DNA of 64,000 nt, from NCBI RefSeq assembly GCF_008642315.1, contig NZ_CP029192.1, positions 4,712,001 through 4,776,000 of the forward strand, in the 5' to 3' direction. Positions 10,681 through 55,466 of this stretch are shown piece after piece. The stretch is from Streptomyces venezuelae (GTDB lineage: Bacteria > Actinomycetota > Actinomycetes > Streptomycetales > Streptomycetaceae). A program made the position numbers and the translations under genes. The notes under the pieces were generated by a model. The model ran no database searches. It had not been told where the DNA came from and saw only the letters and a program-made list of their open reading frames with translations. Position 1 is the stretch's first letter; every line of letters starts with the position of its first letter.

Positions 10681-10689
10681 CTCACATGG

Positions 10690-10762
10690 AGCGAACGACG
10701 AGGTTCGAACTCGCGACCTCAACCTTGGCAAGGTTGCGCTCTACCAACTGAGCTACGTTCGC
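10690..10762 (-). tRNA. tRNA-Gly(GCC), second copy
   Basis: Cloverleaf with acceptor GCGAACG/CGTTCGC, anticodon loop TTGCCAA (GCC) and normal T-loop TTCGAAC. It differs from the 6723 copy by compensated acceptor and T-stem changes. The bases following the discriminator T spell CCA. Confidence 0.97.
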
Positions 10763-10841: not shown

Positions 10842-10913
10842 AGCGGGTGACAGGAATTGCACACTGCGCCTTCCCCCTGGAAGGGGGATGTTCTACTACT
10901 GAACTACACCCGC
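10842..10913 (-). tRNA. tRNA-Gly(TCC) with aberrant D and T loops
   Basis: Acceptor GCGGGTG/CACCCGC, D-stem GTTC/GAAC and anticodon stem TCCCC/GGGGA are all perfect, and the anticodon loop CTTCCAG carries TCC. The D-loop is AGTAGTA, so the usual G18-G19 pair reads AG. The T-arm is abnormal: 5'-GCAG pairs with CTGT only over four bases, and the loop contains GTGCAATT instead of TTCRANY; there is also one extra base. CCA is not encoded. Intact stems argue against a decayed gene. It lies 79 bases upstream of tRNA-Gly(GCC) on the same strand. Comparable GUGC loops are known in staphylococcal tRNA-Gly species that serve peptidoglycan rather than protein synthesis. Confidence 0.85.
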
Positions 10914-11061
10914 ATGACTCCGTGAGGCCCGGCCTTTCGGCCTCGCCCCTCGGCGTGCTCCAGACTCTAGCTGACCAGCGGGGGTGCAGCGCAAGTCGGT
11001 TGTGCCGAGGGGCGCGGATCCGGCGCGGATCCGGCGTGGACCTGCGGGTTCGGGCGGCTGT

Positions 11062-11379
11062 TCAGTTGGCCGCTTCGAACGCCTCGTAGACCTTCTTCGG
11101 GATGCGGCCGCGCGGCGGCACGTTCATGTGGTGCGAGCGCGCCCAGGCGCGGACCGCCGACGGGTCGGGGGAGAGTGCCGTGTGCCGGAACGCGATGCCG
11201 GACCTCGACTGCTTGCGGGCGGCCTCCAGGTACGGGGCAAGTGCCCCGCGCAGTTTCTCTGCATTGGTTTGATTGAGGTCGATCTCGTACGACGTTCCGT
11301 CAAGACCGAACGCGACCGTTTCCGCCGCTTCCCCGCCGTCGATGTCGTCAAAGAGAGTGACCACGACACGTTGCGCCAC
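11062..11379 (-). CDS. lsrL: Lsr2-like nucleoid-associated protein
   Basis: 105 residues from the GTG at 11379 (VAQRVVVTLFDDIDGG), with GAAGGGA 9 bases upstream; earlier in-frame codons are outside the family. The N-terminal dimerisation/oligomerisation domain is followed by a C-terminal DNA-binding domain whose minor-groove motif RGR lies in NVPPRGRIPKKV. Lsr2 proteins coat AT-rich, often horizontally acquired DNA and silence it. Streptomyces have two paralogues; the position next to purS matches the second one (LsrL). The upstream region is markedly AT-richer than the surroundings, which would fit self-binding. The symbol is assigned by synteny memory. Confidence 0.9.
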   Translation of the reverse strand: MAQRVVVTLFDDIDGGEAAETVAFGLDGTSYEIDLNQTNAEKLRGALAPYLEAARKQSRSGIAFRHTALSPDPSAVRAWARSHHMNVPPRGRIPKKVYEAFEAAN

Positions 11380-11740
11380 GAATATCGGTCCCTTCGCGCG
11401 GCTCTCCCGCGTGTACCGCGTTGACATGCGGTGATGCCGACTGCCCGGATGTTTTCGGCAAAGTATCGACTATTGCCATTTCCTTTGTACAGTGCCCGGC
11501 AATGCATTGTGAAGCCTGTCCTAATACCTCCGCGTGTCAGGTTCCAATGACGAAGGGTGATCTTTCATGGATTCATCGTGAAGGTTCTCGGTTCGAAACC
11601 TGTTTGAGCACCGGAACGTGACCGTCATCTCGTAGGTTGCTACGAATCTACGCGAGTAGAATTTTTGTGCCGGTAGTCTGAAGGGACCTGCTCAGCACCT
11701 AGCAAGCAGCACACGCCAGCACCACACACCGGGAGTGCCA
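11380..11740. promoter_or_regulatory. Divergent intergenic region lsrL / purS
   Basis: 361 bases without a gene. Two comparatively AT-rich blocks (about 11440-11540 and 11545-11670) stand out in this genome. Close to purS there is a -10-like TAGAAT (11657-11662) overlapped by the small inverted repeat TCTAC-GCGA-GTAGA (11648-11661), itself preceded by CGTAG-GTTG-CTACG. A matching -35 is weak. These are candidates for the purSQL promoter and an operator. Confidence 0.4.
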
Positions 11741-46747: not shown

Positions 46748-46974
46748 AGTGCACCGCTCCGCATAACAACTGACGCTCTGTCAAGGGAATGTGAAGTTCC
46801 GGTGTTTAGGGAGGAGGGGTCAACTCGCCCCGTTAGGCCCCTTCGTGTCCCGGTACGTACGGCCGATGAGCGTTAACGATCAACCGGAACGGCTTGGAAT
46901 ACCGACCCGCTGTCTATTAACGTTCGATAACGCAGCGCGGTCGTCCCAGCCGTCACTAGAGGCGGCTCCGTGCG
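46748..46974 (+). promoter_or_regulatory. Upstream region of the c-di-AMP riboswitch
   Basis: No gene seen. The block 46870-46940 is AT-richer than its surroundings and contains GAGCGTTAACGATC and TATTAACGTTCGATAACG, related inverted GTTAACG units that could be a promoter or operator for the downstream riboswitch transcript. Confidence 0.35.
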
Positions 46975-47105
46975 CACGCGCCTAATCCCGCAAGGGAGCC
47001 GGGGAACCACGAACATGGGGTGAATCGGGCATCTGTGCATCCGTGCCAGGTGTTCGTAGGAGACCTTCCTGCTCCGAACCCGTCAGCTAACCCGGTAGGC
47101 GAGAA
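46975..47105 (+). promoter_or_regulatory. ydaO/yuaA-type (c-di-AMP) riboswitch
   Basis: The leader contains the conserved blocks of the family: GAGCCGGGGAACCACGAAC, GGGGTGAATCGGGC, and CCGAACCCGTCAGCTAACC ending GGTAGGCG, in the right order. The 5' CGCCT (46979-46983) can pair with AGGCG (47097-47101) to close the outer stem. The ribosome site AAGGAG follows immediately. In Streptomyces this class, sensing cyclic di-AMP, controls cell-wall hydrolases; the gene here is an M23 peptidase, matching that use. Confidence 0.9.
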
Positions 47106-47127
47106 GGAAGGAAAGGAGTGCGCCCCA

Positions 47128-54579: not shown

Positions 54580-55466
54580 GCGCCACCCCTCGACACAGAC
54601 GGCTGCCGGGCAGCGGCTGGACCGCACACGGCATTCGTGCCGTGTTCCCCGGGGGCGGTGGCCGGAAAGTCGGCCGCAAGCGCGTTTGGCCGATCCTCCA
54701 GGTATATGCCTCCGCGAAAACAACAGCACACACAGCGTAGTTCGCCGCATCCCAAGCGTTAAGAGCCCCAGTTCCGGATGGCGAGATTGTTGTCCGTACG
54801 TAGGTGCCTCGGCGGCGATGCGTGCTCCCGTCGTGTGGCCGTGCGCCCGTGCGTGCGCTCTTCTCCGGCCATGGCGGGAGGACTTCCATTGGCGATGCGT
54901 GGGTCGGCCCGCTGCGCTGGAGTCAGTGGGCTGGGGGACACCGCCGCCTCCATCCCCGCGGGCGGCGGACCGGTCCGGGAGGCGAACACCGCCTCCCGGG
55001 CTGTGTGTTGCCTTCGAACGGTTCCCTTCCGGGGCCGCGCCAGGCCGATTTGGCCGAAAACCACCCGTGTACAGAATCCGGCATAACGCCCATGACGGCG
55101 GTGTGCGCATGTGTCCGAGCGCGGTGTGCGCGTGCGTTCGGGTACGGCGTACGCCTGCTCCCGGGTGCGGCGCAGGCGTGCGCCTGTGACGGCTGAACGT
55201 GCCGAGCGCACAAGCCCGCACACCCCCTGTGCGCGGGCCCCGCACGAGCACCCGGGCGCTCCCCGGAAGTCTCACCAAGAAGCAGGGCACCGTTCTGCCC
55301 TCAACTACCGCTCACCTGGGGCGCATTCCAGGGGGCGCAAGCCGTCCCGTAGCCCTTCCCGCACGCCTCCTTCGTGGCAGCATGGGACCCCAGTTCTTCG
55401 GTGTACTGGTCGGCCGTGCCCGGCGGCGCTTCGCCGACGGCCCGTCCACAGCCTGTGGAGGCAGCG
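54580..55466. other. Long divergent intergenic region
   Basis: 887 bases with no credible gene; all ORFs have poor codon use. On the minus strand ATATACC (around 54706) is a possible -10 for the NsdA-like gene. Around 55099-55190 there is a TG/CG-rich block with near-repeats (GGTGTGCGCATGTGTCCGAG and GGTGTGCGCGTGCGTTCGGG; GGCGTACGCCTG and GGCGTGCGCCTG as inverted motifs). Nothing that looks like a lasso or other peptide precursor gene was found. Confidence 0.5.

Follow-up and report, generated by a model that had tools for sequence, protein, structure and literature searches.

EF-Tu grips tRNA at the 51-63 region of the T-stem and binds glycine weakly, the identity elements for GlyRS are G1-C72, C2-G71, C35, C36 and U73, and the glycine in the LL-DAP-Gly cross-bridge is put in place by FemX. 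The accessible part of PMC8007984 describes a UCC tRNA of S. aureus that supplies the pentaglycine bridge and that, although charged, is poorly recognized by EF-Tu. For Streptomyces, the accessible part of PMC4052509 states that S. coelicolor FemX and VanK take aminoacyl-tRNA, and the same part describes as "somewhat unclear", for most cases, how aminoacyl-tRNA is routed to the cell wall instead of protein synthesis. Here we analyze a tRNA-Gly(UCC) gene of Streptomyces venezuelae, found in a 64,000-nt stretch of its DNA (the window), which the first-pass annotation had proposed to be dedicated to peptidoglycan.

The gene and the glycine tRNAs of its genome

The gene occupies 10842..10913 on the minus strand, is 72 nt long, encodes no CCA and carries the anticodon UCC, all as first annotated. 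We refer to this type of tRNA-Gly(UCC) and its counterparts elsewhere as class A; labels beginning with G, L and g denote the genomes, loci and genera sampled here. The Rfam tRNA model (RF00005) gives the gene 53.5 bits against a gathering score of 29, the lowest of nine tRNA matches in the window, and ARAGORN does not call it. Applied to the complete 8.94-Mb genome, which is a single contig, the same model returned 69 matches, 66 of them above the cut-off, and overlooked one of the two copies of class B, a tRNA defined below; that copy was found afterwards. Two other structured RNAs were noted in the window, a c-di-AMP riboswitch (RF00379) at 46969-47116 and an Scr4115 RNA (RF02829) at 54897-55005.

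The glycine tRNA set of the genome consists of several GCC tRNAs, one CCC, one canonical UCC (C1:5911310, L005), class A, and another odd tRNA-Gly(UCC) that we call class B (C1:7990966). In the stretches of this genome that were fetched, 53 of 54 ARAGORN tRNA strings, a few of which differ only at the CCA end, have a TTCRA T-loop, the lone exception being class B. The genome does hold another UCC tRNA, one with normal loops, a point on which the proposal of a dedicated tRNA had turned. Canonical tRNA-Gly(UCC) genes were likewise found elsewhere in 24/24 class A genomes tested, and GGA makes up only 103 of the 1427 glycine codons (7.2%) in 30 window ORFs, so that a second UCC tRNA appears to exceed the need for decoding. 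The canonical gene was not matched in nine genomes (g142, g145, g154); because four of these, all from g154, had no UCC tRNA at all by either pattern, the pattern evidently misses variants and the nine are not counted as evidence.

Conservation of class A and its locus

Class A was read in 37/37 genomes of the same genus, S. venezuelae included. With a strict pattern, a class-wide survey, in which this genus is the sole member of its family and which overlaps with the 37-genome set, found it in 40/40 same-genus genomes and in 0/354 genomes from 136 other genera, and a sample of the phylum gave 9/9 same-genus genomes and 0/287 others. Within the family, matches to the strict pattern came from 86/150 genomes, in 12/17 genera. 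One g147 genome with no match (G702) is only 71% complete, and in g143 class A has an altered acceptor pair in 5/5 genomes tested. The altered loops, which the first-pass annotation expected to recur in sister species, are kept throughout the genus and in 13 of the 17 sampled genera of the family, and some genomes have two or three class A copies in tandem.

The surroundings of the gene are also conserved. Upstream is lsr2, which encodes a nucleoid protein (11062..11427, minus strand; Pfam Lsr2, 2.5e-27), and downstream is an ordinary tRNA-Gly(GCC) called by ARAGORN (10687..10762, minus strand). We compared 105 occurrences of the locus, comprising 102 of class A (tandem copies counted singly) and 3 orthologs with U55; lsr2 was located within 1500 nt upstream in all 105, and the GCC tRNA within 400 nt downstream in 104. 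In seven genomes of g142 and g145, the class A locus holds an ortholog that has the inserted T-stem U described below but G18, G19 and U55, and in 8/8 fetched loci from g151 and g154 genomes, the position of class A is taken by another ordinary tRNA-Gly(GCC), whose mature part is the same as that of the neighboring GCC tRNA. The locus counts leave aside G622 (g156), which was not resolvable. An origin of class A from a plasmid or phage was rejected, as no blastn match at E<=1e-5 was found in plasmid or phage collections and the chromosomal locus is fixed; that TTC T-loops occur in 41/41 tRNAs called in stretches read from two Streptomyces phages also counts against a phage origin.

A conserved block upstream of the gene contains a -35-like TTGCGC (10989..10994, minus strand) and, after a 19-nt spacer, a -10-like TAGAGT (10964..10969, minus strand). 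Of 93 related upstream stretches, 58 contain the pattern TTGNNN-n16-19-TANNNT, versus 0.4% of mononucleotide shuffles. The consensus of the 93 upstream stretches also indicates a 5' leader of ~50 nt (10914..10963, minus strand), strongly conserved in its upstream two thirds and with a small GGCC-GAAA-GGCC hairpin recognized by eye. Conservation of this promoter-like element argues for class A being expressed.

Stems, anticodon loop and T-arm

The acceptor, D and anticodon stems of the S. venezuelae gene are perfect, as the first-pass annotation had it. The 41 distinct class A sequences of 72 nt keep all acceptor and D pairs intact; two-sided changes are seen in all five anticodon-stem pairs, where the only unpaired cells are two at 27-43. 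Such pair-preserving changes, together with conservation across genomes and the near-uniform TTCRA T-loops of the other tRNAs called in this genome, rule out chance or artefact: the class A tRNA is a real gene. A18, G19, U33, the anticodon, A37, U54, G55, C56, A58 and U73 are invariant in the 41 sequences. The anticodon (10879..10881, minus strand) sits in a canonical loop, as U33, U34, C35, C36 and A37 are found in 41/41 and the U33 and purine 37 of canonical elongators are present in each. The glycine identity set given above is also present in 41/41 and, being invariant, suggests that GlyRS should charge class A.

The T-arm (10850..10867, minus strand; 18 nt) had been described as having a four-base stem. 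Based on pair counts, the reading that we prefer is GCAG-[U]-G / UGCRAUY / C-CUGU, with five pairs and one extra U, which in S. venezuelae is at 10863, with the loop UGCAAUU and G55 at 10860. On the five-pair reading, GUGC represents G53-U54-G55-C56, the staphylococcal-type register, and not 54-57. An 18-nt T-arm with an insertion was found in 42/42 distinct class A sequences, so the uninterrupted 5-bp T-stem of canonical elongators is absent from all of them; in the relative Mangrovactinospora (L221), the arm reads ACA-[U]-GG / UGCGAUU / CC-UGU and the insertion is shifted by one step. Pair 51-63 is A-U in 41/41 sequences, including that of S. venezuelae, and position 51 is G or C in the CCC, GCC and canonical UCC tRNA-Gly of the same genome. 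Pair 49-65 is G-U in 36/41, again including the S. venezuelae gene, and A-U in 5/41. The T-stem is so nearly invariant in class A that covariation is no proof of it.

The elbow and its counterparts in viral tRNAs

The altered loops reported initially were confirmed, with a D-loop AGTAGTA in which A replaces G18 and with GUGC in the T-arm, although the consequences drawn from them need revision. A18 (10897) and G19 (10896; both minus strand), G55 and C56 are present in 42/42 distinct class A sequences. Since G19 and C56 are both retained, the G19-C56 contact is not removed, as had been supposed, and the canonical G18-U55 pair has not simply been lost; it is absent, and A18-G55 replaces it in concert. 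No paper in the open literature that we searched was recognized as treating the class A tRNA or A18-G55.

Similar elbows were observed in viral tRNAs. We assembled 35 viral stretches with a GUGC tRNA-Gly and two cellular sequences, which yielded 20 distinct sequences. Seventeen of the 20, the two cellular ones included, have A18 G19 and resemble class A in combining A18-G55 with G19-C56; the other three have no G at 18-19 and are presumably of the staphylococcal type. Unlike class A, the viral GUGC tRNA-Gly(UCC) that were parsed have no T-stem insertion, and several belong to multi-isotype phage sets and presumably decode. Such phage tRNA sets with many isotypes, in which many tRNAs have A18 and G55, were noted (L313, L306, L298, and L288 with L305, the last on one 131-kb viral contig); comparison of the A18-G55 viral contigs with named phages by similarity gave short local matches and nothing longer. 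In the control, G18 G19 was present in 73/73 distinct viral U55 tRNA-Gly, drawn from the 80 stretches listed and used of at least 120.

Across all isotypes called by ARAGORN in the viral contigs, G55 was found with A18 in 80 distinct tRNAs and with G18 in 2; of the distinct tRNAs with U55, 408 had G18 and 3 had A18. These counts are from an automatic parse over the GUGC set and the listed U55 set, in which some rows are visibly misregistered, and they omit 8 G55 tRNAs without a base at 18, 37 U55 tRNAs with a different base or none at that position, and 15 parsed as C55; nor are they independent events, because the first set was picked for GUGC tRNA-Gly and the tRNAs within a phage are kin. 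Judged from these sequences, positions 18 and 55 nonetheless act as one pair that takes either of two states. As A18-G55 also runs through phage tRNA sets with a presumed decoding role, this elbow is no mark of leaving translation. Given the covariation of 18 and 55, the absence of G18 and U55 alone is no evidence for a non-ribosomal tRNA.

Class B and other GUGC tRNAs

Class B is a second GUGC tRNA-Gly(UCC) family, with a pyrimidine at 37 and a short D-loop. Its copies in the S. venezuelae genome are at L063:9967-10036 (minus strand) and L243:9899-9968 (plus strand), and further loci are L109-L138 and L244-L262. The 19 distinct sequences all have U or C at 37 and A51-U63, and class B has G55; at position 37 it is nearer to the staphylococcal non-proteogenic tRNAs than class A is. 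DNA matches to class B at E<=0.01, some of them weak, were found in 108 of 199 genus genomes, often as several dispersed copies with differing neighbors, and a GC-rich inverted repeat was seen by eye 3' of the gene in copies whose flank was read. A conserved gene cluster around class B was rejected, as with rough gene calling the most widely shared protein families reach at most 5 of 21 loci. Among 123 of 139 selected neighbors scanned against Pfam, the commonest of 192 families had 4 members (25 families displayed, with no background set), and the class B pattern had no match in viral contigs. Genes for a PhyH dioxygenase, an MFS protein, an AurF-like N-oxygenase, a ferredoxin/oxidoreductase and an M24 peptidase lie near one copy (L063:1011-13377) and perhaps form a small biosynthetic cluster.

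Additional GUGC sequences were noted. One family genome has a third type of GUGC tRNA-Gly(UCC), with A18 by eye (G664:C2:3885038-3885108, minus strand), and in genome G606 a partial 3' part of a CCC-type tRNA-Gly has GTGCGA (L207). Two MAGs, one from the Patescibacteria and one of a deltaproteobacterium, also have a GUGC tRNA-Gly(UCC) with A18 (L222, L223). The scan of genome contigs found three loci; it demanded a purine at 37 and is thus blind to staphylococci.

Possible functions of the class A tRNA

Our preferred reading, held tentatively, is that class A is a glycine donor with weakened binding to EF-Tu and with FemX as its likeliest user. Class A is a lineage-specific glycine tRNA that occupies a single locus in the Streptomyces family and should be charged by GlyRS. 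Its elbow is held by A18-G55 and G19-C56, and its T-stem carries one additional nucleotide and, where EF-Tu grips, the weak pair A51-U63. The charged tRNA would probably escape EF-Tu more than canonical tRNA-Gly does, and may act mainly as a donor of glycine off the ribosome, with FemX the most likely recipient. The redundancy of UCC tRNAs, the T-stem insertion, A51-U63 and the tandem copies suggest that class A is wanted beyond decoding, the simplest candidate role being glycine donation to FemX. The donor reading is also favored by retention of class A throughout the genus, and by A51-U63 and G55, which recur in staphylococcal donors and staphylococcal-type sequences, respectively.

Of the peptidoglycan-dedicated tRNA originally proposed, what holds is that a second UCC tRNA exists and that the loops are conserved. 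Several observations speak against a donor: U33 and A37 are invariant in a canonical anticodon loop, the elbow is swapped rather than lost and its A18-G55 form recurs in phage sets, a GCC tRNA can replace class A, and 36/41 sequences have G49-U65, a strong EF-Tu pair according to the accessible part of PMC4052509. FemAB bears on the question in both directions. Its presence in the S. venezuelae genome and in 37/37 family genomes tested speaks for a donor to FemX, but it is there whatever the class A locus holds, including 7/7 tested of the eight g151/g154 genomes with GCC in place of class A, and also in 13/23 genomes outside the family. Linkage of class A to femX was therefore rejected, as the one FemAB gene is ~200 kb away and FemAB presence does not separate class A genomes from others.

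The main rival casts class A as an extra decoding tRNA of unusual build. In this additional UCC gene the inserted T-stem U and A18-G55 would be structurally compensated, and the tRNA would read GGA/GGG and raise the supply of tRNA-Gly. We consider this quite conceivable and rank it second. It would account for the canonical anticodon loop, the retention of G19 and C56, the joint change of 18 and 55, the same elbow in phage tRNA sets, the duplicate GCC tRNA in 8/8 genomes resolved, and the seven g142/g145 genomes in which that inserted U accompanies a normal elbow. However, a canonical UCC tRNA is already present in 24/24 class A genomes tested and GGA is rare, and A51-U63 with a T-stem insertion would be odd for the elongator of an amino acid that EF-Tu binds weakly.

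A glycine donor for a different user of glycyl-tRNA, such as natural-product Fem-like enzymes or lipid/protein aminoacylation, is improbable. Such pathways are, as we understand them, strain-specific, whereas class A is in every sampled genus genome, even though the Streptomyces enzymes Orf11 (BD-12) and DhpK (dehydrophos) use Gly-tRNA, according to the accessible part of PMC12945691.

More improbable still is a regulatory RNA or switch, acting through the conserved leader beside the promoter-like element and a hairpin alternative to the T-arm and not through glycine transfer. In the RNAfold minimum-energy fold of the single S. venezuelae sequence, GCGC does pair with GUGC and replaces the T-arm. 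This hairpin is, by eye, broken in L168, L170 and similar sequences, which retain the T-arm pairs, and it is not adopted by the U55 ortholog L225, whose minimum-energy fold has the bulged T-arm, of which the centroid holds part only. That class A is a decaying pseudogene, as its being missed by ARAGORN might suggest, is very improbable and is contradicted by its conservation, with two-sided changes in five anticodon-stem pairs and zero broken acceptor or D pairs in 41 sequences.

A wider proposal, unlikely as a whole, is that A18-G55 could be a second, interchangeable elbow lock, reached independently in the Streptomyces family and in whole tRNA sets of phages; in the bacterial family it would mark a glycine tRNA partitioned from the ribosome to cell-wall glycine transfer, with the dispersed second GUGC tRNA-Gly family serving further non-ribosomal use. 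The presence of class A in all genus genomes of two overlapping samples (37/37 and 40/40), and the series at one locus of U55 ortholog, A18-G55 form and GCC duplicate, make the question of diversion from protein synthesis testable in laboratory strains that are easy to handle.

Comparison with known tRNAs

Class A shares with the canonical bacterial elongator tRNA-Gly(UCC) its acceptor, D and anticodon arms, U33/A37, G19, U54, C56 and A58, and differs in A18/G55 for G18/U55, in one inserted T-stem U and in A51-U63. The tRNA-Gly(CCC) of the same genome (L007) has the same acceptor stem and a near-identical D-arm and is perhaps a paralog, but it has the anticodon CCC, G18G19, GTTCGATT and no insertion.

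With the staphylococcal non-proteogenic tRNA-Gly(UCC), the donors for FemX/A/B, class A has in common the UCC anticodon, U54-G55 and the presence of extra UCC gene(s) beside the normal one. L302 and L309, which we take to be staphylococcal-type sequences, have G55 as class A does, but C37 and no T-stem insertion in place of A37 and the inserted U. In the accessible part of PMC4052509, the staphylococcal donors have A51-U63, as does class A, but UU or CU at 18-19, where class A has A18 G19, and A49-U65, where class A mostly has G49-U65. On the basis of positions 18-19 and 49-65, we do not file class A as a staphylococcal-type non-proteogenic tRNA, although it may still work like one.
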